The position numbers and the translations under genes were made by a program. From contig JALEMS010000004.1 of assembly GCA_022768185.1 (NCBI GenBank), positions 1-64,000 on the forward strand: DNA of 64,000 bases. Direction: 5' to 3'. The stretch is from Clostridiales bacterium. GTDB lineage: Bacteria > Bacillota > Clostridia > Oscillospirales > Oscillospiraceae. Below are positions 1-48,723 of this stretch, piece by piece; within the stretch, counting starts at the first letter, position 1, and each line of letters starts with the position of its first letter. A model generated the notes under the pieces. That model made no database searches. It saw nothing but the letters and a program-made list of their open reading frames with translations, and had not been told where the DNA came from.

Positions 1-326
1 CAGAAACGCTTTGTAAAGGCGATTGCGTACAAGTTTCCCATTGAACAAAAGGTGCTCACGCAATTTGATGAATGCGGGGCATCTGTGGAGACGGTGGTTC
101 TTTTATCCAGAAAAAACACCTGATGATACCATAGGAGTCGACTTGGATTTGGATGAGTTGGATATTACCTCTGCAGAGGCGAAAGCCACCTATCCGGGAG
201 CTGAAGGAATACACGTTACAAAGCTTCGGCTTCAAAGTCTCCAAGCGATTGTGGATTTTCACGAGCAATTCTGAGGATGTGAGGAAAAGAGGGATGCTGT
301 TACCGATGCTTGAAAGCATTATTTAA
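1..326 (+). pseudogene. Decayed 3' end of an RlmD-like gene (two frameshifts)
   Basis: Three reading frames carry one after another what looks like a single protein tail. Bases 1-123 read a segment ending in VETVVLLSRK. The next frame continues PDDTIGVDLDLDELD and SAEAKATY to about base 190. The third frame gives RELKEYTLQSFGFKVSK and runs to a stop at 324-326. As I recall it, this order (VETVVLLS, an acidic PDDxIxVDLDLDELD block, then a KEYxxxxFGFKVS block) occurs at the C-terminus of clostridial 23S rRNA uracil-5-methyltransferase-like proteins. The first shift falls at an A-run and the second near a CCGGGA, so real decay or sequencing error are both possible. The 5' part lies outside the window. 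The stretch is AT-richer than what follows. The family assignment is tentative. Confidence 0.45.
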
Positions 327-8877: not shown

Positions 8878-9978
8878 TCATTCAAAGGTGATGCTGCTTC
8901 CGGTGGGAACAATGGCAATGTAGGTTTTGCCGACGCCGAAGGACAGCGGCGTGCCGTCCTTGAGGGCATAGGTAAAGCTGTCGTCCACGCTGTCGCGCGA
9001 CCAGGTGATCTCGGTGTATTTTCCGCCACAGGCGAAGTACCCGTCCCCGCTGCCGGTCAGCGTGACGGACAGACGACCGGCGCTGTCGAGCACAGAGGTG
9101 GCTGCATACAGCACCAGGATGTTTGTGAAGGTCAGGGGCTGGCCGGTGGTCTCGTCGATCCAGTCTCCGCCGTACTGCATGCCGCGGTAGAGGCCGTCCT
9201 CGCCCAGCTTCATGGTCATGGTCTTATAGCCGGAGAAGTTGACCTCGATGTCCTTTGCGGGGCTTCCGCCGGCCGGCGTACCGTCCTCAGCAAAGCTGAG
9301 ACCGTAGGTTCGGTTCTCCTGCTCATGATAGGCAGCGTATCCCTTCTTTTCGGCATAGGCCATCAGCAGCGGTCCGTTGCCGAACAGGCTGTGCTCAAAG
9401 CCGCGGGACATGCGCGTCTGGTCGCGGTAGAAGGTGCCGGAAGCATAGCTGCCCAGCACGCCGTCCAGATGGTCAATATCGAACGAGCTCATATCCCGGT
9501 AGCTCTGTTCGCTGCCGCCGGCATGAACGGCGATGGCGTCATACGATTTGGCAATGCTGGCATAATACGGACGAATGCTGCGCAGGCTGCCCAGGTCATC
9601 CACGTCCTCCAGTGTGGGGAAGATGGCCATCATTCTCGTAACGCCGCCCTCTGCCAGCACCTCATAGAGGATGGACGCCTTGGAAATGCCGCGTGACGGG
9701 ACAGCCATCTTGATGTTGTTGATCATGACGGCATAGGGGCGCGCGTTGTCATACGGCTCTTCCTGCAATTCACCCGTCAGCGGGTCGGGGTAACGCTCCG
9801 GCTCCTCGGGTTCCTCTGGCTTTTCCGGCTTTTCATGCTCGGTCAGCCCCGACTCGGACTGCGAGGGCTTAACCGGATCCGGCGTCTTCTGTCCGCATCC
9901 GGTCAGCCCGGCCATGCAGCCGAGCAGCAGCGTCAGGGACAGAAGCAGCGCAATGCATTTTTTGCGATTCATAGACAT
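8878..9978 (-). CDS. DUF3048 (YerB-like) lipoprotein
   Basis: 366 residues. The signal peptide has a lipobox LTGCG at about residues 25-29, so the mature protein should be anchored outside the membrane through Cys. A low-complexity linker rich in Pro and Glu (KPEKPEEPEEPE) follows. The DUF3048 domain begins at ARPYAVMINN and includes ISKASILYEVLAEGGVTRMM, and SLRSIRPYYASIA. Family role is poorly defined; YerB is its Bacillus member. First gene of a two-gene operon with the membrane protein downstream, transcribed from a promoter that shares its -35 with the divergent gene. Confidence 0.85.
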   Translation of the reverse strand: MSMNRKKCIALLLSLTLLLGCMAGLTGCGQKTPDPVKPSQSESGLTEHEKPEKPEEPEEPERYPDPLTGELQEEPYDNARPYAVMINNIKMAVPSRGISKASILYEVLAEGGVTRMMAIFPTLEDVDDLGSLRSIRPYYASIAKSYDAIAVHAGGSEQSYRDMSSFDIDHLDGVLGSYASGTFYRDQTRMSRGFEHSLFGNGPLLMAYAEKKGYAAYHEQENRTYGLSFAEDGTPAGGSPAKDIEVNFSGYKTMTMKLGEDGLYRGMQYGGDWIDETTGQPLTFTNILVLYAATSVLDSAGRLSVTLTGSGDGYFACGGKYTEITWSRDSVDDSFTYALKDGTPLSFGVGKTYIAIVPTGSSITFE

Positions 9979-10016
9979 AACCGTTCCTTATCTGAGATAT
10001 TGCGGGGGTATTCTCT

Positions 10017-10067
10017 ATGATATACCGAAAGCGTCTGCTTGTCAAACAATGCCTTGTGTGATACAAT
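10017..10067. promoter_or_regulatory. Overlapping divergent promoters, shared -35 element
   Basis: Plus strand: TTGTCA at 10039-10044, 17-base spacer, TACAAT at 10062-10067, reading into ywlG. Minus strand: TTGACA (plus 10040-10045), 17-base spacer, TATCAT (plus 10017-10022), reading into the DUF3048 gene. The two -35 hexamers share five bases of the same TTGTCAA heptamer, so polymerase cannot occupy both at once. Confidence 0.75.
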
Positions 10068-10104
10068 TCAAAATCATAACTTTTTTCGCACGGAGATGAA
10101 AAAT

Positions 10105-10656
10105 ATGGATTCCTCCATTTTCAATGCTGCAGCCGCTGCGCTCGAAGAATTGCTGGAATGCGCAAGGCTGCGCCCCGGTCAGCTGGTCGTCATCGGCTGC
10201 TCGTCCAGCGAGATCGTCGGTCAGCACATCGGAAAAGGCTCGTCCCCTGCGGCGGCACAGGCCGTCTATGCCGCCGTCGCGCCCATTCTGGCCGAGCATG
10301 GACTTTCTCTGGCTGCCCAGTGCTGTGAGCACCTCAACCGCGCGCTCGTCATGGAGCGGGCCGACGCCGAGCGCTTCGGGTATGCGCCCGTTTGCGTGCG
10401 CCCTGTCCCCAAAGCCGGCGGCAGCTTCGCCTCCGCCGTGTACGACGGCATGACGGACCCCGTGGTCGTCGAGCACGTCCGCGCCGACGCCGGACTGGAC
10501 ATCGGTCTGACGCTCATCGGTATGCACCTGAAGGAGGTCGCAGTTCCGGTACGCCTGCAGACCTGCCGGATCGGCGAAGCGGTCGTCACCGCCGCGCGCA
10601 CCCGCCCCAAGCTCATCGGCGGCTGCCGCGCCGTCTACCCGGAGGAAGTGCGCTGA
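10105..10656 (+). CDS. ywlG: TIGR01440/UPF0340 family protein (YwlG-like)
   Basis: 183 residues matching the YwlG/UPF0340 family: LVVIGCSSSEIVGQHIG near the N-terminus, QCCEHLNRALVMER in the middle, and DIGLTLIGMHLKEVAVPVR toward the end. The family is conserved in Firmicutes, often near serine/threonine metabolism or glyA, but its biochemistry is unclear. The ATG at 10105 is preferred over one at 10096 because the GGAG ribosome site sits nine bases before it. Its stop codon overlaps the start of the downstream aldolase gene (TGATG), so the two are translationally coupled. Confidence 0.85.
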   Translation: MDSSIFNAAAAALEELLECARLRPGQLVVIGCSSSEIVGQHIGKGSSPAAAQAVYAAVAPILAEHGLSLAAQCCEHLNRALVMERADAERFGYAPVCVRPVPKAGGSFASAVYDGMTDPVVVEHVRADAGLDIGLTLIGMHLKEVAVPVRLQTCRIGEAVVTAARTRPKLIGGCRAVYPEEVR

Positions 10657-11693
10657 TGATTTATTTCACCTGTGACTACGCCGAGGGCGCACATCCGAAG
10701 ATTCTGCAGCGCATGGCCGAAACGAACCTGGAGCAGACCCCCGGCTACGGGCTGGACGTCCACTGTGAGCGCGCACGCGCGCTCATCCGCGCCGCCTGCG
10801 GTAAGCCGGAGGCCGAGGTACACTTTCTTGTCGGCGGCACACAGACCAACCTGACCGTCATCGCCTCCGTCCTTCGCCCGCATCAGGGCGTCGTGGCCGC
10901 CGCCACCGGGCACATCGGCGTGCATGAGACCGGCGCCATCGAAGCCGGCGGCCACAAGGTGCTGACGCTGCCCACAGCCGACGGCAAGATCACGGCCGCG
11001 CAGATCGACGCCTGCTTCCGTTCCCATTTCGAAGACCCCACACATGAGCATATGGTGCAGCCCGGCATGGTATACCTCTCCTTCCCGACCGAGACGGGCC
11101 TGCTTTACAGCAAGTCGGAGCTGACTGCCATCCACGAGGTCTGCCGCAGATACGGCGCGCCGCTGTATCTCGACGGAGCGCGCCTGGGCTACGGTCTCGC
11201 CTCCCCGGAAAACGATCTGACACTGCAGGACATCGCCCGGCTATGCGATGTGTTTTATATCGGCGGTACAAAGGTCGGCGCGCTGTTCGGCGAGGCAGTG
11301 GTCATCACCGATCCCGCGCTGGGGAGCGATTTCCGTTATCTCATCAAGCAGCGCGGCGGCATGCTGGCCAAGGGCCGGCTGCTGGGCATCCAGTTTGAAA
11401 CGCTGTTTGAAAACGGCCTGTATGACGAGATTTCCCGCCATGCCGTCAACTGTGCCATGCGCATCCGTCGCGCGCTGGAGCAGCGCGGCATTCCGATGCA
11501 TCCCGTCTCCCCCACCAACCAGCAGTTTCCCGTGCTGACGCAGGCGCAGTTCGACGCGCTCTCGCAGCAATTTGTGCTGGATATATGGGGCGCCGAGGAC
11601 GGCAGCCGCAGCTGCCGCATCTGTACCAGCTGGGCCACGCGCGAGGAGGCCGTCGACGCTCTCGTCGGCGCCATCGCCTCGCTGCCGGACTGA
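10656..11693 (+). CDS. ltaE: Low-specificity L-threonine aldolase / beta-eliminating lyase
   Basis: 345 residues, fold-type I PLP enzyme that cleaves L-threonine or L-allo-threonine to glycine and acetaldehyde. Visible landmarks: YGLDVHCERARALI near the start, FLVGGTQTNLTVI (cofactor phosphate region), ATGHIGVHETGAIEAGGHKV, LYLDGARLGYGLA with the conserved Asp, and FYIGGTKVGALFGEA with the PLP-binding Lys. Length fits the family. The frame is open further upstream, but the ATG that overlaps the ywlG stop is the natural start. Cytosolic; role in glycine/threonine interconversion. Confidence 0.9.
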   Translation: MIYFTCDYAEGAHPKILQRMAETNLEQTPGYGLDVHCERARALIRAACGKPEAEVHFLVGGTQTNLTVIASVLRPHQGVVAAATGHIGVHETGAIEAGGHKVLTLPTADGKITAAQIDACFRSHFEDPTHEHMVQPGMVYLSFPTETGLLYSKSELTAIHEVCRRYGAPLYLDGARLGYGLASPENDLTLQDIARLCDVFYIGGTKVGALFGEAVVITDPALGSDFRYLIKQRGGMLAKGRLLGIQFETLFENGLYDEISRHAVNCAMRIRRALEQRGIPMHPVSPTNQQFPVLTQAQFDALSQQFVLDIWGAEDGSRSCRICTSWATREEAVDALVGAIASLPD

Positions 11694-11709
11694 GCGTCCG
11701 GATACGGCA

Positions 11710-11747
11710 AAAGGATCGATGTGACCAGGGTCACACCGATCCTTTTT
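11710..11747. terminator. Bidirectional terminator between ltaE and rplA
   Basis: AAAGGATCG-TGTGACC and GGTCACA-CGATCCTTTTT pair with one internal mismatch. A-run and T-run flank the stem, so it can serve both convergent operons. Confidence 0.85.
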
Positions 11748-11779
11748 ACGTTATGCAGGAATGCGTCGTTCCGAACCGA

Positions 11780-12475
11780 TCAGGCCTGTCTGTTGGCAGC
11801 GTTGATCTTGACGCCGGGGCCCATGGTGGAGGCGGTGACGCAGCTCTTGATATACTGACCCTTGGCGGCAGCCGGCTTGGACTTGATGATGGCGCTGATG
11901 AGCGCGTCGAAGTTCTCGTTGAGCTTCTCTGCGCCGAAGCTGACCTTGCCGATGGGGCAGTGGATGATGTTGCTCTTGTCGAGACGGTACTCGACCTTAC
12001 CGGCCTTCACTTCGGCAACGCCCTTGGCGATGTCGGGCGTGACAGTACCGGCCTTCGGGGACGGCATCAGGCCCTTGGGGCCGAGAACCTTCCCACGGCG
12101 GCCGACGGTGCCCATCATATCGGGCGTGGCGATGACGGTGTCGAACTCAAACCAGTTTTCGGTCTGGATCTTCTGAACCAGCTCCTGGCCGCCGGCATAG
12201 TCGGCGCCGGCTGCAAGGGCCTCTTCCACACGCTCGGGCTTGCAGAAGACCAGCACGCGCTTGGTCTTGCCGGTGCCGTTGGGCAGGACGATGGCGCCGC
12301 GGACCTGCTGGTCTGCATGACGGCCATCAACGCCGAGCTTGACGTGCAGCTCGACGGTCTCGTCGAACTTCGCCTTTGCACCGCTGATGACAAGGCCGAA
12401 GGCCTCCAGCGGCTCATACTGGGTCTGCTTATCGATGAGCTTTGCGCTCTCTTTATAATTCTTACCTCTGAACAA
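11780..12475 (-). CDS. rplA: 50S ribosomal protein L1
   Basis: 231 residues of standard L1. Core motifs: [62 protein letters not shown] (the L1 signature; quoted here only as the central [14 protein letters not shown]) and VKINAANRQ at the end. It binds 23S rRNA at the stalk and is a translational repressor in many bacteria. Start: TTG at 12475 (Met-Phe-Arg-Gly-Lys), because AGGAGG ends nine bases before it; the more upstream in-frame TTG lies inside the ribosome site itself. Last gene of the rpmG-secE-nusG-rplK-rplA operon. Confidence 0.95.
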
Positions 12476-12537
12476 TTTGTGTGTCCTCCTCAAAATGTGG
12501 TGTGTCGGAATAATCCTCCCACTGGGAAACGGTGAGC

Positions 12538-12966
12538 TTACTCAGCTGCGACAACAACGCCCATGCTGCGGCAGGTGCCGGCAATCATGCTCATGGCGGC
12601 GTCGATGTCGGTGCAGTTAAGGTCCTTCATCTTGGTCTCGGCGATCTTACGCAGATCTTCGCGGCTGATGGTGGCGACCTTATCACGCTGAGGCACGCCG
12701 GAGGCAGTCTCGATGCCGCAGGCCTTCTTGATCAGCAGAGCGGCGGGGGGCGTCTTGGTGATGAAGGAGAAGGTGCGGTCGGAGTAGACGGTGATGACGA
12801 CAGGGATCATCATGCCCATGTCGCCCTTGGTACGCTCATTGAAGTCCTTGGTGAACTGGCCGATGTTCACGCCATACTGGCCGAGAGCGGGACCGACCGG
12901 GGGAGCCGGCGTTGCCTTGCCGGCAGGAACCTGGAATCTGACGTAGCCAACTACTTTCTGTGCCAT
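12538..12966 (-). CDS. rplK: 50S ribosomal protein L11
   Basis: 142 residues, the normal L11 length. Recognisable segments are [24 protein letters not shown]-type N-terminus ([20 protein letters not shown]), [19 protein letters not shown], and the C-terminal RNA-binding domain with [13 protein letters not shown]. It binds the GTPase-associated region of 23S rRNA. The ATG at 12966 is chosen over further upstream frames because of the GAGGTG ribosome site and family alignment. Lies between nusG and rplA. Confidence 0.97.
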
Positions 12967-12994
12967 TAAAGAGCACCTCTTTCTAAAACTAATG

Positions 12995-13519
12995 TTATTC
13001 GGAAACTGCCTCGACCTGGTCAAGCTCCAGATCGACGGGCGTTTCTCTTCCGAACATGGAGACGACCACACGGATGCGGTCCTTTTCCGGCTCCAACTCG
13101 TCGACAACGCCGATGAAGCCTTCCAGCGGCCCGTCCATTACGCGGACATGGTCGCCCACGTCGAAGCCCACAACGATCTCACGGCGCTCGACGCCCAAAT
13201 CAAGAATCTCCTGCTCGGTGAGGGGAACCGCCTTGCCGGCCGAGCCGACAAATCCGGTAACGCCTCGTACATTACGGACAAGATGCCAGCTCTCGTCCGT
13301 CAAAACCATCTTGACGAGCACATAGCCGGGAAAGACCTTTCGCTCGACGGTCTTGTCCCCGCCCTCACCGCGCTCGACGACGGTTTCCATCGGGATGTTG
13401 ATCTCAAGGATCAGATCCTGCATCTTCCGGTTTTCCGCTGCTTTCATGACTGCGGCTGCCACAGCGTTTTCATAACCGGAATAGGTATGGATCACATACC
13501 ATTTTGCTGTTTCGGCCAT
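12995..13519 (-). CDS. nusG: Transcription termination/antitermination factor NusG
   Basis: 174 residues. The NGN domain starts with [17 protein letters not shown] and includes [25 protein letters not shown] domain follows ([19 protein letters not shown]), with a short C-terminal strand [15 protein letters not shown]. It binds RNA polymerase and couples it to ribosomes. Begins two bases after the secE stop; same operon as the ribosomal proteins, as is usual in bacteria. Confidence 0.97.
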
Positions 13520-13521
13520 CG

Positions 13522-13791
13522 TTATGCTCCGATGTCGATGAGCAGCCGGATGACCATCTGCGCCAACTCGTCAAAGCCCCAGAGGACCACTGCCGAGATG
13601 AACATGGAAACCAGCGCCACGAGGGTGTTGTTCGTCACCTGCTTCGTGCCCGGCCAGGACACCTTCTTCAGCTCACTCTTCATCTCGCGCCACCACTTCT
13701 TGGTGCGCTGGCCGAAGGAGAGCTTTTCGTCCGTCTTCTTTACAGCGGTTGCGGGCTTTGCTGCCTGATAGGGCTTCTTTTCTTCTGCCAT
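13522..13791 (-). CDS. secE: Preprotein translocase subunit SecE
   Basis: 89 residues. A charged, Lys-rich N-terminus precedes the amphipathic helix KKWWREMKSELKKVSWPG, the SecE hallmark, and a single transmembrane helix (about 60-85) near the C-terminus. It belongs to the SecYEG channel in the cytoplasmic membrane. Sits between rpmG and nusG. Confidence 0.95.
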   Translation of the reverse strand: MAEEKKPYQAAKPATAVKKTDEKLSFGQRTKKWWREMKSELKKVSWPGTKQVTNNTLVALVSMFISAVVLWGFDELAQMVIRLLIDIGA

Positions 13792-13812
13792 TTTGCGCTT
13801 CCTTCCGTAAAA

Positions 13813-13962
13813 CTACTTGGTTTCGTTGTGCAGCGTGTGCTTGCGGCAGAACGGGCAGTACTTCTTCATCTCAACACGGTCGGGCGTGTTCTTCTTGTTC
13901 TTGACCGTATTGTAGTTTCTGTTCTTGCACTCTGAGCATCTCAGGGTGATCTTTACTCGCAT
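13813..13962 (-). CDS. rpmG: 50S ribosomal protein L33 (zinc type)
   Basis: 49 residues, [17 protein letters not shown] at the start and [15 protein letters not shown] at the end. Both CxxC pairs are kept, so this is the zinc-binding form. The ATG at 13962 is preceded by AAAGGAGG. First gene of the operon leading to rplA. Confidence 0.95.
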
Positions 13963-14034
13963 GTTCGGCACCTCCTTTAATATTTGGCCTCGCTGGGCCA
14001 TGCCTCCCTGTGTATGACGCCTGGATCAAGCCGC

Positions 14035-14098
14035 AAAAAATTGACCCATCGGCCGACAGGTAATGCATATTATAGCATACCTTGTCCGATGGGTCAAT
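14035..14098 (-). terminator. proB terminator hairpin enclosing the rpmG promoter
   Basis: On the minus strand a 13-base arm ATTGACCCATCGG (plus 14086-14098) pairs perfectly with CCGATGGGTCAAT (14040-14052), and TTTTTT follows. An inner, partly paired stem (ACA-GGTA / TACC-TGT) closes the loop. It begins 13 bases after the proB stop. The rpmG promoter lies inside it. Confidence 0.75.
14069..14097 (-). promoter_or_regulatory. Promoter of the rpmG-secE-nusG-rplK-rplA operon
   Basis: Minus-strand TTGACC (plus 14092-14097) and TATAAT (14069-14074) with a 17-base spacer. The -35 lies in the 5' arm and the -10 in the loop of the proB terminator hairpin. Confidence 0.8.
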
Positions 14099-14110
14099 AG
14101 TCGTCTGCCC

Positions 14111-14968
14111 TTATTTTTCAGGAATTTTTCCCGGTTCTGCAGGATTTTTGCCTGCCTGCGCCGTGTTCTTCCGGGCGGCCTGACGCCCTGCGAACAGCGT
14201 GCCGACCGGTCTGCCCTCCACGATGTCATAGAGCAGCTCGGGATCGGCTCCGTTGGCAATGATCATGTCCGCGCCGCTTTCCATGATGATCGAAGCCGCG
14301 TTGAGCTTGGTGACCATACCGCCGGTGCCGCGGTCAGTGCCCGCGCCGCGCGCCAGCGCGCGGATATCGTCATCGAGCACGCGCACCTCGCGGATGAGCC
14401 GGGCGCCGGGCGCCTCGCGCGGGTCTGCCTCATACAGTCCGTCGATATCCGACATCAGCACCAGCAGCTCCGCCGAGCACATCACCGCCACGATGGCCGA
14501 AAGCGTGTCGTTATCGCCGAACACCTTGTGCTCCGACTCGATCTCCGTATGGCTCACCGAGTCGTTCTCATTGACGATGGGGATGATGCCCATCTCCAGC
14601 AGGGCTTCAAATGTACCGATGAGGTTTTCCTTCTTCTCCGGCAGCTCGATGTCCTCGTCCGTCAGCAGGATCTGCGCCACGATCTGGCCGTATTCACCGA
14701 AGAACTTGTCGTAAATATGCATCAGCTCGCACTGGCCGACCGCTGCCGCCGCCTGCTTCATGCGGATCTCCGTAGGCTTTTCCTTCAGGCGCAGCTTGTT
14801 GCGCCCCACCGCAATCGCACCGGAGGAAACCAGCACGACCTCATGGCCCATGTTGTGAATCTCCGTAAGCACGCGTGCCAGGCGCTCAAAGCTGCGAAAA
14901 TTGATCTCGCCGCCGTCGTGCGTCAGCGTGGAGGTTCCGATCTTGACTACGATTCGTTTCTTTTCCAT
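14111..14968 (-). CDS. proB: Glutamate 5-kinase (no PUA domain)
   Basis: 285 residues. The amino-acid kinase fold is clear: RIVVKIGTSTLTHDGGEI at the start, VLVSSGAIAVGRNKL, NENDSVSHTEIESEHKVFGDND in the middle (quoted core NENDSVSHTE and FGDNDTLSA), LLVLMSDIDGLYEADPR, and GTGGMVTKLNAA. It phosphorylates glutamate in proline synthesis. The RNA-binding PUA domain of longer ProB proteins is missing; a short Lys/Pro-rich tail replaces it, as in other short ProBs. proA is not adjacent. Start: the ATG at 14968, since AAAGG lies at better distance from it than from the ATG three codons upstream. Probably co-transcribed with the AEC transporter. Confidence 0.9.
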   Translation of the reverse strand: MEKKRIVVKIGTSTLTHDGGEINFRSFERLARVLTEIHNMGHEVVLVSSGAIAVGRNKLRLKEKPTEIRMKQAAAAVGQCELMHIYDKFFGEYGQIVAQILLTDEDIELPEKKENLIGTFEALLEMGIIPIVNENDSVSHTEIESEHKVFGDNDTLSAIVAVMCSAELLVLMSDIDGLYEADPREAPGARLIREVRVLDDDIRALARGAGTDRGTGGMVTKLNAASIIMESGADMIIANGADPELLYDIVEGRPVGTLFAGRQAARKNTAQAGKNPAEPGKIPEK

Positions 14969-15001
14969 CGTCCGCATCCTTTCGTATTATGTAAACCGCT
15001 T

Positions 15002-15940
15002 TCAAAAGACCCCGAGCCACTGAAACAGCAGGATCCACAAAAACATGGTAAAACAAACCAGAGCGCTCGTCACCACTACGATGTCGCCGGCCAGCTCTGC
15101 ATCGCCGCCCATCTGCTGCGTCATGGTAAAGGAGGAAATGGCGTTGGCCGAGGCAAACGCGCCGATGAGCGAGACAAACTCCACCCCGCGGAAGCCGAGC
15201 AGCGCCGCCAGCCCAAGAAACACCGCCGGGATGATGACCAGCCGCCACGCTGTAACATACAAAAGCTCCCGCTTATAGCGGCGCAGTCCGTCGAACCGGA
15301 AGAATGCGCCCAGCAGAAACAGCTGCAGAGGCGTGGCCACATCACCCATATACTCCACTGCCGTCACCAGAAACTGCGGCAGGCGCAGCCCGCTCAGCAG
15401 TACCAGAAGGCCGAGGCACGAGCCGATGATCAGTGGATTTTTGAGAATGTCGAGCACCATCCGTCCGGGATGGAGCTTCCCGCCGCGGAAAACCGTCAGA
15501 GTGATGACAGCCAGTACGTTCAACTCCGGAACAACCACGGCAATGAGAATGGCGATCGGCCCGAGGTTGCCCTTGCCCAGCAGCGCTGTGGCGACGGGTA
15601 CGCCCATGATGACGTAATTGCAGCGATAAATGCCCTGGATCATCACACCGCGCTTATCCGGGCTTTTCTCCACCAGCAGCACAAAGCCCAGGCCAAGCAG
15701 ATACGCGCCCAGAATGCCCAGCACCGCATAGGCCATCAGCGCCGGCCGCACCGCGCTGCTCAGATCGGAGCAGTAAACATGATAAAACAGCATGACCGGC
15801 AGAAACACGCGAAAGGCCACGTTGTTCATGCGCGGCAGATCCTCGTCGCGCAGCATGCCCGTCCGTCGCACCAGATAACCTGTGGCCAGAATCAGGAACA
15901 TCGGCACGACGGCATTGACACAAACCAGAAAATGATTCAC
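15002..15940 (-). CDS. AEC family transporter (auxin efflux carrier type)
   Basis: 312 residues with about ten hydrophobic helices. N-terminus NAVVPMFLILATGYLVRRTGML and the central VMIQGIYRCNYVIMGVPVATAL (core GIYRCNYVIMGVPVA) fit AEC carriers. A C-terminal five-helix repeat includes NAISSFTMTQQMGGDAEL. Probable substrates are organic acids or amino acids; none can be assigned. It lies 33 bases upstream of proB in the same direction, so a link with glutamate or proline metabolism is possible but only inferred from position. Confidence 0.83.
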   Translation of the reverse strand: MNHFLVCVNAVVPMFLILATGYLVRRTGMLRDEDLPRMNNVAFRVFLPVMLFYHVYCSDLSSAVRPALMAYAVLGILGAYLLGLGFVLLVEKSPDKRGVMIQGIYRCNYVIMGVPVATALLGKGNLGPIAILIAVVVPELNVLAVITLTVFRGGKLHPGRMVLDILKNPLIIGSCLGLLVLLSGLRLPQFLVTAVEYMGDVATPLQLFLLGAFFRFDGLRRYKRELLYVTAWRLVIIPAVFLGLAALLGFRGVEFVSLIGAFASANAISSFTMTQQMGGDAELAGDIVVVTSALVCFTMFLWILLFQWLGVF

Positions 15941-16125
15941 ATGCGGGTCCCTCTTGCTATGGCAGGATCGTTAATGATTCAGTTTACTCCCTGTCCGCCG
16001 AAATTGCAAGCACCCCCTCCCATTCTGCCGAAAAAATTGTGCGGCGTGCCGTCCTCTGCGGGCGTACAGAAGCCCGGCTGCTCCGAACGGGCGGATCAGC
16101 CGGGCTTTCCGGGTTTGCTGCGGTA

Positions 16126-16467
16126 TTACAGCACTGCGTTGGACGGGCGGATGACCGGTATACCGCCGGCTGCGTCGACGGTGATCATGACGGCCCGATC
16201 CATCAGCGCCGGGTCAATGTGAAAGCGATATCCTCCGGCGGAGACGATCCGGTCGCCCGGCGCGCCGTCCCCGCAGAGCAGCTTCATCTGGTTTTTGCAG
16301 GCACGGCAGGCCTTGCAGCCGACGCTGCAGCGGTCTCCCTGCAGACGGATGCACAGATCGGCAATCCCCTGCGTGCGGTATTCGCTGTCCAGCCAGAACT
16401 GGCCCAGCTCGGTGATATGGATCATATACAGTCCTTCCCCTTTCTCCCCATCATGTTCCATGCGCAT
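16126..16467 (-). CDS. Cys-rich protein, paralogue B (IscA-like pattern?)
   Basis: 113 residues, or 99 if the internal ATG at MIHITELG is the start. That start makes the product collinear with its neighbour. Order of features: GQFWLDSEYRTQGIADL, a Cys cluster CSVGCKACRACK (C-x3-C-x2-C-x2-C), then GGYRFHIDPALMDRAV and a GIPVIRPS tail. The VxGYxFxxDPxLM segment faintly recalls HesB/IscA iron-sulfur carriers, but the usual C-terminal CxC is absent. Function unknown; metal or cluster binding is an inference from the cysteines. 25 bases downstream of its paralogue. Confidence 0.6.
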   Translation of the reverse strand: MRMEHDGEKGEGLYMIHITELGQFWLDSEYRTQGIADLCIRLQGDRCSVGCKACRACKNQMKLLCGDGAPGDRIVSAGGYRFHIDPALMDRAVMITVDAAGGIPVIRPSNAVL

Positions 16468-16492
16468 GCCCGGAGCACGGCGGGACGCCGCC

Positions 16493-16792
16493 TCAGAAAA
16501 TGGGCTTGGACGGACGGATGTCGAAGAAGCCGGCGGGCGCGTCGATGTTGAGATTGACGGCCTTGGCCATCAGTGCAGGATCCACGCTGAAGTTATAGCC
16601 CTCCACCGTGTAGACCTCGTCGCCGGCTGCGCCGGGCTTGGTCTCCAGCTGAATCTGACCCTGGCAGCATCTGCACACCGGACAGCACTGACGGCACTTC
16701 CAGCCCTTGACGATGATGTGCAGGTCGGTGATGTTCCGTCTGCCGTATTCCTTATCGAGCTGAGTCTTGCCGTCCTTGGTGAGGTTGATCAT
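16493..16792 (-). CDS. Cys-rich protein, paralogue A (IscA-like pattern?)
   Basis: 99 residues, clearly paralogous to the next gene downstream. MINLTKDGKTQLDKEYG opens it, followed by the Cys cluster CRQCCPVCRCC, which contains the same C-x3-C-x2-C-x2-C frame with two extra cysteines. Then come VEGYNFSVDPALMAKAVNLN and FFDIRPSKP. No signal peptide. Role unknown; iron-sulfur or other metal handling would fit. A GGGGGA ribosome site precedes the ATG, and a good promoter lies about 70 bases upstream. Confidence 0.65.
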   Translation of the reverse strand: MINLTKDGKTQLDKEYGRRNITDLHIIVKGWKCRQCCPVCRCCQGQIQLETKPGAAGDEVYTVEGYNFSVDPALMAKAVNLNIDAPAGFFDIRPSKPIF

Positions 16793-16857
16793 GAGAAAAT
16801 CCCCCTTTTTATCATTTTTACAATCCCTCTTGATTCTCCGCGAGAATAACTATCTAT

Positions 16858-16885
16858 AGTATATAAAGCCTGAAAAATCAGGCAA
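16858..16885 (-). promoter_or_regulatory. Promoter of the Cys-rich pair with inverted repeat in the spacer
   Basis: Minus-strand TTGCCT (plus 16880-16885) and TATACT (16858-16863), 16-base spacer. The spacer holds a perfect inverted repeat GCCTGA-AAAA-TCAGGC (16868-16883) that runs into the -35 and could be an operator. Confidence 0.6.
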
Positions 16886-17049
16886 TACTACTTTCGGCAT
16901 ATTTCTTGCCGATTCGGGGCTGTGTCGGGGGAAACGGCCCTCCAAAAGCGGAATCAGAACACAGGTGTTGACACAGGTGTGAATGTCTGACGGTACAGCC
17001 GCTGTGGCCCTCCAGGCCTCTGCTTCCCCTTTCGGAGGTCTTTAAAATA

Positions 17050-17078
17050 TTGACCACCCGGTCTGTTTATGCTATCAT
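17050..17078 (+). promoter_or_regulatory. Promoter upstream of the protease remnant and lipoprotein gene
   Basis: TTGACC (17050-17055), 17-base spacer, TATCAT (17073-17078). It precedes the remnant at 17120 and is the likely promoter for the lipoprotein gene at 17415. A direct repeat of ACACAGGTGT occurs 80 bases upstream (16959-16968, 16971-16980). Confidence 0.65.
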
Positions 17079-17119
17079 GAAATGAACGATTGCTTGTGCT
17101 CGGCTTCCGGGAGGGCCAA

Positions 17120-17385
17120 ATGAAGAAAACGATTGCAGTATTTTTGACGGCGTGGCTGCTCACCACATCAGTCTTTGCCGCGGGAACCGGAGCAAGCTGA
17201 CCTATACCATCCTGCACGAATACGGCCATGTTCTGCCGGAGGACGAGACCCAGATGGACCTCTCCGTCGGGACCAATACCCATGACCCCGCAGGCTTCAT
17301 GGAAGGCTCGTTCCGAATGCGGTATGATGAGCCGGATATGCCGGCTTTGCGTTCCGCGATCCGTGAGAATTTCGGGTTGAGCTAA
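17120..17385 (+). pseudogene. Remnant of an exported zinc metalloprotease
   Basis: The ATG at 17120 has a ribosome site (GGGAGGG) and encodes a good signal peptide (MKKTIAVFLTAWLLTTSVFA) that ends in a stop about 27 codons later. In another frame, starting immediately, a C-terminal fragment reads LTYTILHEYGHVLPEDETQ and ends GSFRMRYDEPDMPALR before a stop at 17383-17385. HEYGH is a classic HExxH zinc site. The two parts look like the ends of one secreted protease joined by an internal deletion that also broke the frame. No intact catalytic protein can be made. Confidence 0.6.
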
Positions 17386-17414
17386 GCGCATTGAGAGCGA
17401 TTAGGGAGGCATCT

Positions 17415-18680
17415 GTGACAAATTATAAGAATATAAAACAAGGTTTCCGCATCCTTTGCGTGGTATTGCTGTTGGCCTGTGTTTTGGCCGGGTGCGGAAA
17501 AAAAGAGGAAACCTCACCCGCTCCGCCTGCTTCCGCAGAGAATGCGCCTCCGGCGTCCGTGCAGGATCCGGAAGCCGAACCGGCAGGTGAGACCGATATG
17601 GAGCAGGAGCAAATTCCTTCCGAAGATACGAATGCCGTCCCCCCGGCAGAATCCGAACTGCCTTCTTCAAAACCGGAACAAGGGCCGGTGGAACCAGAAC
17701 CGCCTCAGCCGGAAACGCTCCTTGCGGTTTCCGACCGGGATATGCTGAAAACGGAGCTGACAGAAGCCATCGTACATCTGCGCCAGCCCGTGCGCATGGA
17801 TATTTCAAAAGTTGGGTTGGCCTCTCCCGAAATGGATATCAAAAACATCTATTATGAGATCGTGGCACAAAATCCACGCCTGAAATACGCCTATAATGTG
17901 ACTGCCATGGTAAATGGGGCGGAATTGACCTGCAAGGTTCATTATATGCCCTATAAAACCGGTGACTTCTCCGCCGATTTTTCCGGTGCGGAGGTTGCAT
18001 CATTAAAGGACCTGCTTCTGACCGCTGAAGAACACATCGGAGAAGAGCCGGTATCCATCCGCATTACAGACTCCGCACTGGACCCGGATACCATGAATCG
18101 CGCTTTGCAGCAGGCAGGGGGCGGATATGTCAATTGCATCCTGAATGTGGATGCTACCGAGATCCGGTACAACGCCCCGGTAGGCATGACGATGGAGGAA
18201 TGCCTGGCGGCACTGCATTCGGCGGAACAGTTGGCCGACGAGGTGATCGCCCAGGTCATCACAGACGGCATGACCCGGCAGGAGCAGGCAGAAGCGCTCT
18301 ATTCTTATGTGACGGAACATGTGACCTACGACCATCGGTATTATGCAGACAGGGCCAATATGCCGTATGCGTCTCAGACCGCGCTGGGCGCGCTGCGGGA
18401 CAGCGTCGCTATTTGCGGCGGCTATTCTCATGCCGTGAAGCTGCTATTTGAGAAGGTTGGAATTCCCTGCTTCAATGTGACCGGTTCTTACTTCCGTGAG
18501 AATCATATGTGGAATTACGTAATACTCGATGGCAAGGGCTACTACTGTGATGCAACTGCTGACAGGGGTGGCCGGAGCAATCATTTTATGCTGACCCCGG
18601 ACGAAATGACGGCGCTCGGAGAGCATAAATGGGATCAGGAATCGGTCGTGAATCTTGCGCATGCCATGGAAGGGATTTGA
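17415..18680 (+). CDS. Lipoprotein with transglutaminase-like domain
   Basis: 421 residues. Signal peptide with lipobox LAGCG at about residues 25-29, followed by a Pro/Glu/Ser-rich linker (roughly 30-100), then a soluble domain. The C-terminal third is transglutaminase-like: SVAICGGYSHAVKLLFEKVG (catalytic Cys), ENHMWNYVILDG (His) and YYCDATADRG (Asp). It may act on the cell envelope as a peptidase or amidase, or only bind. The GTG at 17415 is chosen because AGGGAGG lies six bases before it; an upstream TTG has no ribosome site. It follows the protease remnant by 30 bases. Confidence 0.83.
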   Translation: MTNYKNIKQGFRILCVVLLLACVLAGCGKKEETSPAPPASAENAPPASVQDPEAEPAGETDMEQEQIPSEDTNAVPPAESELPSSKPEQGPVEPEPPQPETLLAVSDRDMLKTELTEAIVHLRQPVRMDISKVGLASPEMDIKNIYYEIVAQNPRLKYAYNVTAMVNGAELTCKVHYMPYKTGDFSADFSGAEVASLKDLLLTAEEHIGEEPVSIRITDSALDPDTMNRALQQAGGGYVNCILNVDATEIRYNAPVGMTMEECLAALHSAEQLADEVIAQVITDGMTRQEQAEALYSYVTEHVTYDHRYYADRANMPYASQTALGALRDSVAICGGYSHAVKLLFEKVGIPCFNVTGSYFRENHMWNYVILDGKGYYCDATADRGGRSNHFMLTPDEMTALGEHKWDQESVVNLAHAMEGI

Positions 18681-19051
18681 AGCTCCCCACCCTCCGCCTG
18701 ATGCTGATTTTCATGCGAAGCCGAAGAAGCCAAACCAGAGCGCGGAGCGCATGGATTGCAAATTAAGAAGGCGGGCTTACGCTTCACCCCGTTGTGGAAG
18801 CAGGTGATTTGATATCGGTCAAAGGAAACAAAGAGTCCGAACCCATCATCAATTGGAAATGGGTTCGGATTCGATCGTTTGTAAGATTCAAGCAGGATCG
18901 ATGCCGTCGTTTTCAGGCCTGTAGCAAAACCAAATCGAAGCCCAGCGGAGCGGGTTCGATTCGGAAAGGGGAAGCGAAGGAATGAGCGAGAGATGACGTT
19001 TGCTTTGAAGAAGAAAACGTCGCCGCAGACGATATGCAGTCCGCGACGACG
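18681..19051. other. Noncoding stretch with a strong hairpin
   Basis: No gene was recognised in 371 bases. TCCGAACCCAT (18836-18846) and ATGGGTTCGGA (18859-18869) form a perfect 11-pair hairpin without a following T-run. The minus strand is open through this region and into tRNA-Leu, but that frame translates a tRNA and is not believable as a protein. Confidence 0.45.
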
Positions 19052-19138
19052 TGGTGCCGGTGACGGGGGTCGAACCCGTACGCTGTCGCCAGCTCGGGAT
19101 TTTAAGTCCCGTGCGTCTGCCTGTTCCGCCACACCGGC
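19052..19138 (-). tRNA. tRNA-Leu (TAA)
   Basis: On the minus strand the acceptor arm GCCGGTG pairs with CACCGGC, followed by A and an encoded CCA. The D-loop reads TGGCGGAACAGGCAGACGC, typical of leucine tRNA, the anticodon loop contains TTAAAAT with anticodon TAA, a long variable arm is present, and the T-loop reads GGTTCGACCCC. 87 bases including CCA. Confidence 0.95.
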
Positions 19139-19152
19139 ACAATTACGCGGTC

Positions 19153-19181
19153 ATCTTAACATTCCGCCCGGAAATTGTCAA
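19153..19181 (-). promoter_or_regulatory. Promoter of tRNA-Leu
   Basis: Minus-strand TTGACA (plus 19176-19181), 17-base spacer, TAAGAT (19153-19158), 15 bases before the mature tRNA. Confidence 0.75.
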
Positions 19182-19221
19182 CGGCTTTCCCCGCCGCATC
19201 CATGCGCCGGAAAAGTTTTCG

Positions 19222-19250
19222 TTGACTTCCGGCGACATTTATGCTATAGT
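19222..19250 (+). promoter_or_regulatory. Promoter of tRNA-Thr
   Basis: TTGACT (19222-19227), 17-base spacer, TATAGT (19245-19250), about 70 bases before the mature tRNA. It is back to back with the tRNA-Leu promoter. Confidence 0.7.
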
Positions 19251-19319
19251 AGCACCGTTCTGTTCCATCCCTCCCGGTCGCAGAGCGGCTGTTTTTCAGA
19301 AGCGGTCTCAAGTTCATAT

Positions 19320-19395
19320 GCTGGCATAGCTCAGTCGGTAGAGCAGCTGATTCGTAATCAGCAGGTCGTGTGTTCGAGTCACATTGCCAGCTCCA
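19320..19395 (+). tRNA. tRNA-Thr (CGT)
   Basis: Acceptor GCTGGCA pairs with TGCCAGC, then T and encoded CCA. D-arm AGCTCAGTCGGTAGAGC, anticodon stem CTGAT/ATCAG with loop TCGTA and anticodon CGT, T-loop TGTTCGAGTCAC. 76 bases. Confidence 0.96.
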
Positions 19396-19396
19396 C

Positions 19397-19432
19397 AAAA
19401 GCGGTGAAAATCCTTTGATTTTCACCGCTTTT
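19397..19432. terminator. Terminator after tRNA-Thr
   Basis: AAAAGCGGTGAAAATC and GATTTTCACCGCTTTT form a perfect 16-pair stem with a four-base loop. Ends in A- and T-runs on both sides, so it also serves the convergent HD-domain gene. Confidence 0.9.
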
Positions 19433-19439
19433 GCAGCTT

Positions 19440-19985
19440 TTAAATCACATTTGACGCACATGAGGAGCTTTCCGGGCAGGAGCCGCGCTCGCCGGACAGA
19501 TACAGGCTGCGCAGCAGGCGTTTGCCGGAAGCTGTTTCGAAGATGTGCTCCAGCGCAGCGCGGACGGCCTGCTCACTGTAGCCGTTCTCTCCGGCATTCA
19601 CCAGGTAGTCCGCCTCCAGCAGGATCCGGTGATCCGGGCCGTCGACGCCGGTATACGTATGGTGGTGCGCCGTCAGCCATGAGACACGCCGGACGGTTTC
19701 CTGCGAAACGGGCAATCCGTCGAAAAACGCCTCCACCAGCGGAGGGCTTTCCAGCTCCTGTTTTTTCCCGTCGGTATTCCCGTATTTCTTGCGGCAGAGC
19801 GGACAGGCAATGTCATGCACGATGGCCGCCAGCTCCAGCGTCTGCTGCATACCGGCATCCAACCCTTCCAGCGCTCCGATCATTTCTGCAAAGGCATGCA
19901 CCTTCATAAAGTGCTCCACATCGTGCAGGTTTCCCTGCGAAAGGGCGATCATCTTTTCCATCGCATCGGCAATCAGCACAGCCAT
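19440..19985 (-). CDS. HD domain phosphohydrolase
   Basis: 181 residues. HD-superfamily metal ligands are visible as DVEHFMKVHAFAEMI, AAIVHDIACPLCRKKYGN (His-Asp pair) and a later AHHHTYTGVDGPDHRILLEADYLVN segment (core LTAHHHTYTG). Likely acts on nucleotides or phosphoesters; substrate unknown. The ATG at 19985 follows GGGAG; the longer upstream frame lacks a ribosome site and overlaps ogt. Third gene of the minus-strand group zinc ribbon, ogt, HD. Confidence 0.85.
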   Translation of the reverse strand: MAVLIADAMEKMIALSQGNLHDVEHFMKVHAFAEMIGALEGLDAGMQQTLELAAIVHDIACPLCRKKYGNTDGKKQELESPPLVEAFFDGLPVSQETVRRVSWLTAHHHTYTGVDGPDHRILLEADYLVNAGENGYSEQAVRAALEHIFETASGKRLLRSLYLSGERGSCPESSSCASNVI

Positions 19986-20016
19986 TTCTCCCTTCCATGC
20001 GCCATTGCGCCGTTTC

Positions 20017-22041: not shown

Positions 22042-22080
22042 ATGTGTTTTCACCTCCGGATTTTACTGGTCGCGCCCACA

Positions 22081-22111
22081 AAAGAAAAAGCCTTCATGCA
22101 AAAGCACGAAG
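22081..22111 (-). terminator. Attenuator hairpin in the rplJ leader
   Basis: Minus strand: CTTCGTGC (plus 22104-22111) pairs with GCATGAAG (22092-22099), followed by GCTTTTTCTTT. It lies between the L10-binding element and the rplJ start, where a regulated terminator would be expected. Confidence 0.7.
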
Positions 22112-22145
22112 ACAGAAAGCAATCAAAATCAGTCAATTGATGCCA

Positions 22146-22188
22146 TCCTCGGCAGGATTTACGGCGTGACGCCACCTGCTGTCTTCGG
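22146..22188 (-). promoter_or_regulatory. Ribosomal protein L10 leader
   Basis: The minus strand reads CCGAAGACAGCAGG, a GTGGCGTCACGCC hairpin, and then CCTGCCGAGGA. As I recall it, these two conserved blocks around a variable hairpin are the hallmark of the Firmicutes L10 leader that binds L10(L12)4. The element is followed by an attenuator hairpin and then rplJ. Confidence 0.88.
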
Positions 22189-22199
22189 AGCGCTCAATT

Positions 22200-22228
22200 A
22201 AAATATCATCTTTTTCCTTGCTTGTCAA
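22200..22228 (-). promoter_or_regulatory. Promoter of rplJ-rplL
   Basis: Minus-strand TTGACA (plus 22223-22228), 17-base spacer, TATTTT (22200-22205), just upstream of the L10 leader. Confidence 0.7.
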
Positions 22229-23251: not shown

Positions 23252-23257
23252 ACGGAA

Positions 23258-23315
23258 ACAGCCCTGCAGTACAGTCCCGCCGGCCATGCGGGCTGCGCTG
23301 CAGGGCTGTTTTTTT
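23258..23315 (+). terminator. Terminator of the E2-like gene
   Basis: ACAGCCCTGCAG (23258-23269) pairs with CTGCAGGGCTGT (23298-23309), with a second small stem inside (CCCGC/GCGGG), followed by TTTTTT. Confidence 0.85.
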
Positions 23316-23323
23316 GCCCCGGC

Positions 23324-48338: not shown

Positions 48339-48684
48339 GCGAGTATGCCGAACGGTCGCGGGTGCAGGCCGAAAGGCCGCATCTGAGGAAAGTCCGGGCT
48401 TCATAGGGCAGGATAACGGGTAACACCCGCCAGGGGCGACCCTCGGACAAGTGCAACAGAGAGATACCGCCGCGCTCCGTGCGCGGTAAGGGTGGAAAGG
48501 CGAGGTAAGAGCTCACCCGCCGGCTGGAGACAGTTCGGCGCTGTAAACTCTATCCGAAGCAACGCCGTGGAGGGACATATGGCCGGCCCGGCCGTCCCGG
48601 GGAGGCGGCTTGAGCGCATCGGCAACGGTGCGTCGAGATAGATGACCGTTTAAGACAGAACCCGGCTTACAGACATACTCGTAC
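48339..48684 (+). ncRNA. rnpB: RNase P RNA
   Basis: The catalytic RNA that trims tRNA 5' ends. Universal blocks are present: GAGGAAAGTCCGGGCTTC at about 48387 and the matching ACAGAACCCGGCTTACAG near the 3' end. Also present are the GTAAGGGTGGAAAGG-GAGGTAAGAG region and AAACTCTATCCG. The ends pair as GAGTATG with CATACTC (P1). About 345 bases; exact ends are estimated. Own promoter and terminator. Confidence 0.95.
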
Positions 48685-48723
48685 CAAAACGCCAGACCGG
48701 CTGCGCCGGTCTGGCGTTTTGGC
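48684..48723 (+). terminator. Terminator of rnpB
   Basis: CCAAAACGCCAGACCGGC pairs with GCCGGTCTGGCGTTTTGG around a short loop; T-run at the 3' arm. Confidence 0.9.

Follow-up and report, generated by a model that had tools for sequence, protein, structure and literature searches.

The window, a stretch of 64,000 nucleotides from a Clostridiales bacterium, carries on its minus strand the locus studied here: the gap between the proB stop (14111) and the rpmG start (13962). NCBIfam confirmed the gene identities proposed in an earlier note on this DNA, namely an operon rpmG-secE-nusG-rplK-rplA with proB upstream. The features, in the order in which they would be transcribed, are as follows.

14111..14977, minus strand: proB, the codirectional upstream gene, whose read-through RNA would make the long stem (NCBIfam)
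14086..14098, minus strand: 5′ arm of the 13-bp read-through stem, lineage-specific, ATTGACCCATCGG
14092..14097, minus strand: -35 hexamer TTGACC, within the 5′ arm of the long stem
14069..14074, minus strand: -10 hexamer TATAAT with TGC upstream (extended -10), in the long-stem loop
14044..14061, minus strand: conserved leader hairpin ACCTGTC-GGCC-GATGGGT (model R1, 62.5 bits), opening at the predicted +1 (14061)
14040..14052, minus strand: 3′ arm of the 13-bp stem, CCGATGGGTCAAT, which is mostly the 3′ arm of the conserved leader hairpin
14035..14040, minus strand: T-run T6, fitting TTNTTT (direct reading); the class-wide T-run peak lies 20-29 nt past the -10
14007..14011, minus strand: ACAGG, part of the conserved CAGGGAGGCA motif, with CCTGT 14060-14056 as its candidate long-range partner
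13969..13977, minus strand: rpmG Shine-Dalgarno sequence AAGGAGGTG, family-conserved as AGGAGGTGCCG
13813..13962, minus strand: rpmG (L33), first gene of the operon, ATG at 13962, 49-aa form (NCBIfam)
13522-13791, downstream of rpmG: secE (NCBIfam)
12995-13519, minus strand: nusG (NCBIfam)
12538-12960, downstream of nusG: rplK (NCBIfam)
11780-12493, downstream of rplK: rplA (NCBIfam)

Promoter and stem between proB and rpmG

Read directly from the sequence, ATTGACCCATCGG and CCGATGGGTCAAT form a perfect 13-bp stem with a 33-nt loop, followed by T6; the first T of this run (14040-14035) closes the stem. The earlier note had described such a stem with its T-tract, with TTGACC in the 5′ arm and TATAAT in the loop, 17 bases apart, and this description is borne out by direct reading, by folding and by shuffling. 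The RNA fold of 14110-14030 reaches -36.8 kcal/mol, compared with -18.7 kcal/mol in shuffles (z = -6.1; 0/200 shuffles as low), and no 13-bp stem with a T-tail (a 13-bp inverted repeat, a loop of up to 60 and at least five T in the next eight positions) appeared in 40 dinucleotide shuffles of the window. The proB read-through RNA has the form of an intrinsic terminator, a stable hairpin (13 bp) followed directly by a U-tract (T6), with a loop that is partly folded itself and is longer than usual for this class of signal. The 81-bp sequence of the site occurs once in the genome, which rules out a dispersed repeat or mobile element. A divergent promoter arising from the symmetry of the palindrome was also rejected, as reading of the plus strand found no -10 at the proper distance.

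The promoter, TTGACC-17-TATAAT, matches 11 of the 12 consensus bases of the sigma-70/sigma-A hexamers and has a spacing within their 16-18 nt range. Among the promoter-like sites in positions 9000-20000 it ranks first, tied at 11/12 with one site that lacks the TG. Its -35 starts 13 nt after the stop codon of proB (14111-14113). A sigma-A-type promoter is kept ahead of rpmG across 19 aligned loci, and TTGACC itself is found in 102 of 136 distinct heads from the family (Oscillospiraceae-type genomes).

The same 3′ arm and T-run also belong to a second structure, overlooked in the earlier note: the leader hairpin (14061-14044), in RNA started at the promoter. The predicted folding energies of the promoter's own RNA and of the read-through RNA are -7.0 and -32.5 kcal/mol, respectively, in the window, and -2.0/-33.7 and -2.0/-22.0 kcal/mol at two loci with long stems outside the family (L096 and L084, respectively).

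Three other RNA-related features were observed in the window. At 23257-23317 (plus strand), another perfect stem (13 bp or more) has a T7 tail and a long loop of about 28 nt, and the reading frames on either side of it look convergent. An L10_leader (RF00557) lies ahead of rplJ at 22075-22206 (minus strand), a separate ribosomal leader in the same gene cluster. The RNase P RNA (bacterial class A) is found at 48340-48685 (plus strand).

The leader hairpin and T-run in the family and in Clostridia

When 200 family genomes were searched with the DNA, many matches started near the -10 and stopped at the T-run, and the 19 non-own loci fetched in this way all lie ahead of rpmG except one (L015). A head model (R1) built from 19 heads has matches in 120 of the 200 family genomes, nearly always one per genome, and among 100 family loci examined rpmG lies downstream in all but one, where the contig end cuts it (L275). 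The named relatives carrying the leader are metagenome-assembled genomes of Oscillospiraceae or Ruminococcaceae, mainly of gut and rumen origin. Their leader RNA, ACCUGUCGG..GAYGGGU-UUUAUUUUUGUGCGC, comprises a 7-bp hairpin (ACCUGUC/GAYGGGU) at the predicted +1 of the rpmG-secE-nusG-rplK-rplA RNA and a U-tract, downstream of which come CAGGGAGGCA and then AGGAGGUGCCG ahead of the start codon.

The positions of this helix are 92% paired in the family, compared with 28-43% when the arms are slid. Because its 5′ arm is nearly invariant, the family alignment offers no double-sided covariation; the support comes from one-sided changes and from the variable hairpins of other families. Rfam gave no match to the leader in the window at the gathering threshold, nor at E<=5 in eight loci, and a literature search covering listings and selected passages found no published account of an rpmG or nusG-operon leader. 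Only half of the 13-bp stem is conserved, namely the 3′ arm and the T-run, and the -35 arm is a lineage-specific addition. The earlier note had proposed comparing sequences to see whether promoter hexamers and stem pairing are conserved together. Such a comparison finds the promoter kept together with the leader hairpin, whereas the long stem accompanies it in few lineages only.

We then used an independent, protein-anchored sample of Clostridia, in which 125 of 128 genomes had a NusG match and 124 were used (one genome with only a distant NusG-like match, G386, and three without a match were left out). With a rule of at least seven T in eight, 12-29 nt past the -10 of the best promoter ahead of rpmG, a T-run is present in 71 of the 124 genomes, compared with 11.5 expected from shuffles; the other 53 fail this strict rule, as does the T6 of the window itself. 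The T-run starts are concentrated in the +20..29 bin (96) and the +10..19 bin (24), with at most nine in any other 10-nt bin. The sequence preceding the T-run folds with a mean of -2.9 kcal/mol, compared with -1.5 kcal/mol in shuffles (34% of the 71 at rank <=0.1), and the hairpins differ in their letters: ACUUCU/AGAAGU, GCUUC/GAAGU, CCUCU/AGAGG and GCUU/AGGU. Several Clostridia families in the 124-genome sample have nothing alike ahead of rpmG.

Among the class loci other than the window's own, 16 of 20 lie ahead of rpmG (L056, L059, L066 and L071 do not). Inspection by eye of 28 loci in the other classes of this phylum showed no case of the same arrangement (one of these loci, L199, has no promoter call and another, L200, no rpmG), which makes the promoter-leader T-run element a feature of Clostridia. 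The T-run is found in 33 of 57 genomes with a codirectional neighbour and in 18 of 22 with a divergent one, a further 45 genomes being ambiguous or at a contig edge. Since it is as frequent beside divergent genes, the element appears to concern the operon's own RNA.

A search for the promoter-plus-T-run pattern in 20 genomes returned the rpmG promoter among a few other sites per genome, with backward-pattern controls giving similar numbers in several genomes. In the window's own genome, a 6-T version found one other site and missed the rpmG promoter, owing to the spacing limit of the pattern. In the same genome (L314, about 1500-1560, contig C69), a sigma-factor-like reading frame has its ATG directly after T6, about 20 nt past the -10 of a strong promoter-like site. 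In one other Clostridia family (f11; three genomes, L311, L292 and L313, around position 1500), a GC-rich hairpin and T7 come immediately after the promoter of what we take from the sequence to be rplM-rpsI, so that hairpins at the start site may occur beyond the nusG operon.

Long stems and the upstream gene

Pairing between the -35 region and the leader is absent from most relatives, and the long stem is a feature of a minority of loci. The stem survey covered 81 loci (80 named loci and that of the window), of which 75 have a head and 68 were scored. The long stems of the family measure 13 bp in the window, 14 bp in L368, 11 bp in L389, and 10 bp in L369/L379 and in L013/L390/L392, and are of several different sequences. 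Outside the family, stems of 16 bp (L096) and 11 bp (L084) have their 5′ arm within the spacer between the hexamers, and the ends of codirectional reading frames lie 52 and 37 nt upstream, respectively. In the window and in L368, L369, L389, L392, L084 and L096 alike, 13-84 nt separate the end of such a frame from the -35 downstream of it. These frames differ: proB in the window, a membrane transporter related to that at 15002-15940 of the window in L369 and L389, and others elsewhere.

Our first neighbourhood test, which relied on longest-ORF calls, gave no difference in stem strength (2/59 versus 2/79); it was replaced by a test with codon-scored ORFs, restricted to the family, which did. 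Over the 83 family loci with scored neighbours, those that have the end of a codirectional gene at most 100 nt upstream score higher for the stem (Mann-Whitney p=0.0034). Strong stems, by a cut of 22 that was set after the stems had been seen, occur at 4 of 13 such loci versus 2 of the 70 other family loci (Fisher p=0.0048), where related loci are not independent and L369, L379 and L389 look like sister lineages. Of the 13 loci with a close codirectional gene, 9 have no stem at the threshold, and L319 (12 bp) and L003 (8 bp) have stems yet divergent neighbours. L379 is also scored as divergent, although in stem and promoter it is similar to L369 and L389; it was left so because the transporter of these two loci was not found there. 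When leader arms were shuffled among 136 promoters, 231 pairs were observed compared with 214.7 expected, and 67 of 2000 shuffles reached as many.

At the level of sequence we consider both anatomies, their conservation and the association with the gene neighbourhood to be established. The occurrence of strong stems near close codirectional gene ends, with sequences that differ from lineage to lineage, argues for long stems as the repeated evolution of a read-through terminator that would use promoter DNA as one of its arms. The earlier note saw a promoter as DNA and a terminator as proB RNA. As a reading this holds up well, given the gap between the energies of read-through and own RNA and the recurrence of stems near close codirectional genes. 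'Terminator of proB' does not stand as the primary role, since in many Clostridia, those with divergent neighbours included, the rpmG operon has the 3′ arm and T-run as a conserved 5′ leader, and since proB adjoins rpmG in no other family locus examined. The interpretation of the earlier note is partly supported: the promoter within a terminator of proB is a real anatomy, and a local extension of the conserved promoter-proximal hairpin of the rpmG-secE-nusG leader. As a separate observation, over 14111-15940 of the minus strand of the window a membrane transport protein (PF03547) precedes proB, and a relative of it stands directly before rpmG in L369 and L389. Together with the lack of any other proB-rpmG neighbourhood in the family loci examined, this suggests that proB may have been inserted or relocated in the window.

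Mechanism, alternatives and known systems

We lean, with modest confidence, towards two layers on one stretch of DNA: a conserved leader hairpin with its U-tract, and a lineage-specific read-through terminator. The start site, termination, pausing and any regulator are what we infer in this scheme. In the first layer, a strong sigma-A promoter would give an RNA in which a hairpin of 4-7 bp opens at the predicted +1 and runs directly into a U-tract ending at about nucleotide 25-30. This is the geometry expected of an intrinsic terminator, or of a hairpin-stabilized pause, that lies no further from the promoter than one polymerase footprint. Part of the polymerases would be held or released soon after initiation, and the output of rpmG-secE-nusG-rplK-rplA would be set in this way. 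An early brake, that is a promoter-proximal pause or attenuator acting on the operon RNA, is in our view the most likely role of the conserved hairpin and U-run. With an RNA as short as this, intrinsic termination (at about +28) may have a low efficiency. As in an attenuator, a terminator-like hairpin with a T-run precedes the first gene, although it is weak (-7.0 kcal/mol), and no mutually exclusive antiterminator was found upstream, the hairpin opening at the predicted +1 and the only competing partner found lying downstream. In the second layer, where a codirectional gene ends nearby, the DNA around the -35 would have become complementary to the 3′ arm of the hairpin. RNA from the upstream gene (here proB) would then fold into the long stem, ending at the shared U-tract, and terminate, whereas RNA started at the promoter would be without the 5′ arm and would mostly escape.

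Could the brake be a feedback device of NusG itself? The promoter-proximal U-tract would then be a NusG-stimulated pause or terminator, with which the nusG operon senses its own product without an aptamer, much as in the case of B. subtilis nusA. NusG is encoded by this operon in all 124 Clostridia genomes, and there is no room for a sensor upstream of the leader hairpin. TTNTTT occurs in 68 of 88 family heads (L231 left out) compared with 12.8 in shuffles, the window having TTTTTT, and TGYG in 76 of 88 compared with 12.7, at 8-13 nt past the hairpin; this about fits the consensus and spacing of hairpin pauses. T-rich conservation, however, yields TTNTTT by itself, and the similar hairpin and T7 that one family has at its rplM-rpsI promoters would suggest a general phenomenon. 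The NusG of the window (12995-13519, minus strand) reads H, N and V at what we take, from the motif context, to be the positions of B. subtilis Y77, N81 and T82. Most of the Clostridia sampled read Y, N and T, and this combination is equally common with the T-run (48/71) and without it (41/53), so that pausing-type residues show no association with the T-run. Passages of PMC8060035 and PMC12288461 describe NusG as stimulating pausing at TTNTTT and intrinsic termination; the substitutions Y77H/N81S/T82V abolish pausing by B. subtilis NusG according to a passage of one or other of the two, and B. subtilis NusA is autoregulated by attenuation (in a passage of PMC12288461). As the NusG residues do not favour a NusG-specific device, we give the main weight to a general attenuator or pause; feedback by NusG is doubtful, if the strongest of the competing explanations.

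Second among them, and unlikely, is an insulator only: the hairpin and U-tract would stop upstream read-through from entering the ribosomal operon, and the RNA from the promoter would be too short for termination. Read-through RNA always offers more partners for the 3′ arm and folds far more strongly, and the long stems do occur near close codirectional genes. As a sole function, though, insulation is rejected by the T-run being at least as frequent beside divergent genes (18/22) as beside codirectional ones (33/57), and the small hairpin has its 5′ arm, which hardly varies in the family, on the downstream side of the promoter.

The third alternative, also improbable, is a 5′ stabilizer or RNA switch, in which the paired 5′ end would guard the mRNA from 5′ exonuclease or decapping, CCUNU/ANAGG would refold, and the U-tract would be a by-product or a binding site. 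In its favour, each of the 87 family leaders has a base pair between position 5 and the tail (G-C in 81, G-U in two and A-U in four: L269, L271, L274 and L282). Dropped from this set were ten duplicate loci of counted genomes, L275 (cut by a contig end), and L035 and L225 (no tail motif), and L231 was re-anchored by hand in it. The resulting 85 Watson-Crick pairs were reached by 0 of 5000 tail shuffles. Four leaders change both sides of CCUG/CAGG, to CCUA and UAGG, the leader of the window is predicted to fold with the CCUG/CAGG long-range helix, and other families show, by eye, CCUC/GAGG, CCUU/AAGG and CCUGCC/GGCAGG. On the other hand, positions 6 and 7 do not covary, and a general test for long-range helices was positive (p<=0.05) for 4 of 60 class leaders, which is about chance, and for 3 of 87 family leaders, so that a class-wide helix was rejected. 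A stabilizer or switch would also leave the fixed distance of the T-run from the -10 unexplained. We treat the CCUG/CAGG contact as a candidate and not as a result.

Less probable than these three is a bolder scheme with a factor-dependent pause at about +28 on the nusG operon, where the hairpin from +1 and the T-rich non-template strand would block re-initiation when NusG is plentiful, and where some lineages would have recruited the -35 region to make a terminator for the preceding gene. If true, this pause would be the bacterial counterpart of Spt5-dependent promoter-proximal pausing, NusG being the bacterial Spt5. That a strong promoter and a proB terminator share letters by chance, with no function beyond that of each, is very improbable: arm-promoter pairing is indeed weak overall in the family, but stems recur in several lineages with different letters and an association with the neighbourhood, and the 3′ half is conserved class-wide.

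If the two-layer reading is true, a core operon for ribosomal proteins, SecE and NusG would be run, in a large group of gut bacteria, by a signal of about 30 nt without a sensor domain, and whether polymerase can be regulated by a hairpin that opens at the first nucleotide becomes a testable question. The closest parallels are the B. subtilis nusA and rplJL leaders, where a terminator-like hairpin and U-tract likewise lead a Nus-factor or ribosomal-protein operon: NusA stimulates termination in its own leader (PMC12288461), and the rplJL (L10(L12)4) leader comprises an anti-antiterminator, an antiterminator and a terminator (PMC4538822). Compared with the leaders as described there, the present hairpin opens at the predicted first nucleotide, without a preceding antiterminator or aptamer. 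Among the Rfam ribosomal leaders, L10_leader (RF00557) is also a cis-element of Firmicutes ribosomal operons; it matches elsewhere in the window, whereas the rpmG leader matches no Rfam family. NusG-dependent hairpin pauses of the B. subtilis trp leader type share with our site the hairpin, the non-template TTNTTT and a possible RNA 3′ end about 10 nt past the hairpin. Here the putative pause would be promoter-proximal and on the nusG operon itself, and the NusG of the window differs at two of the three key residues. A search of literature listings found no published description of a -35 box pairing with a leader element. Terminators of tandem genes can overlap the next promoter, so that the end of one unit and the beginning of the next share a stretch of DNA. 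Here, by comparison, the -35 box is itself an arm of the stem, and the arm opposite it belongs to the conserved leader of the next operon. If the two-layer reading is true, the site would illustrate how promoter DNA can evolve into the arm of a terminator while its promoter function is kept.
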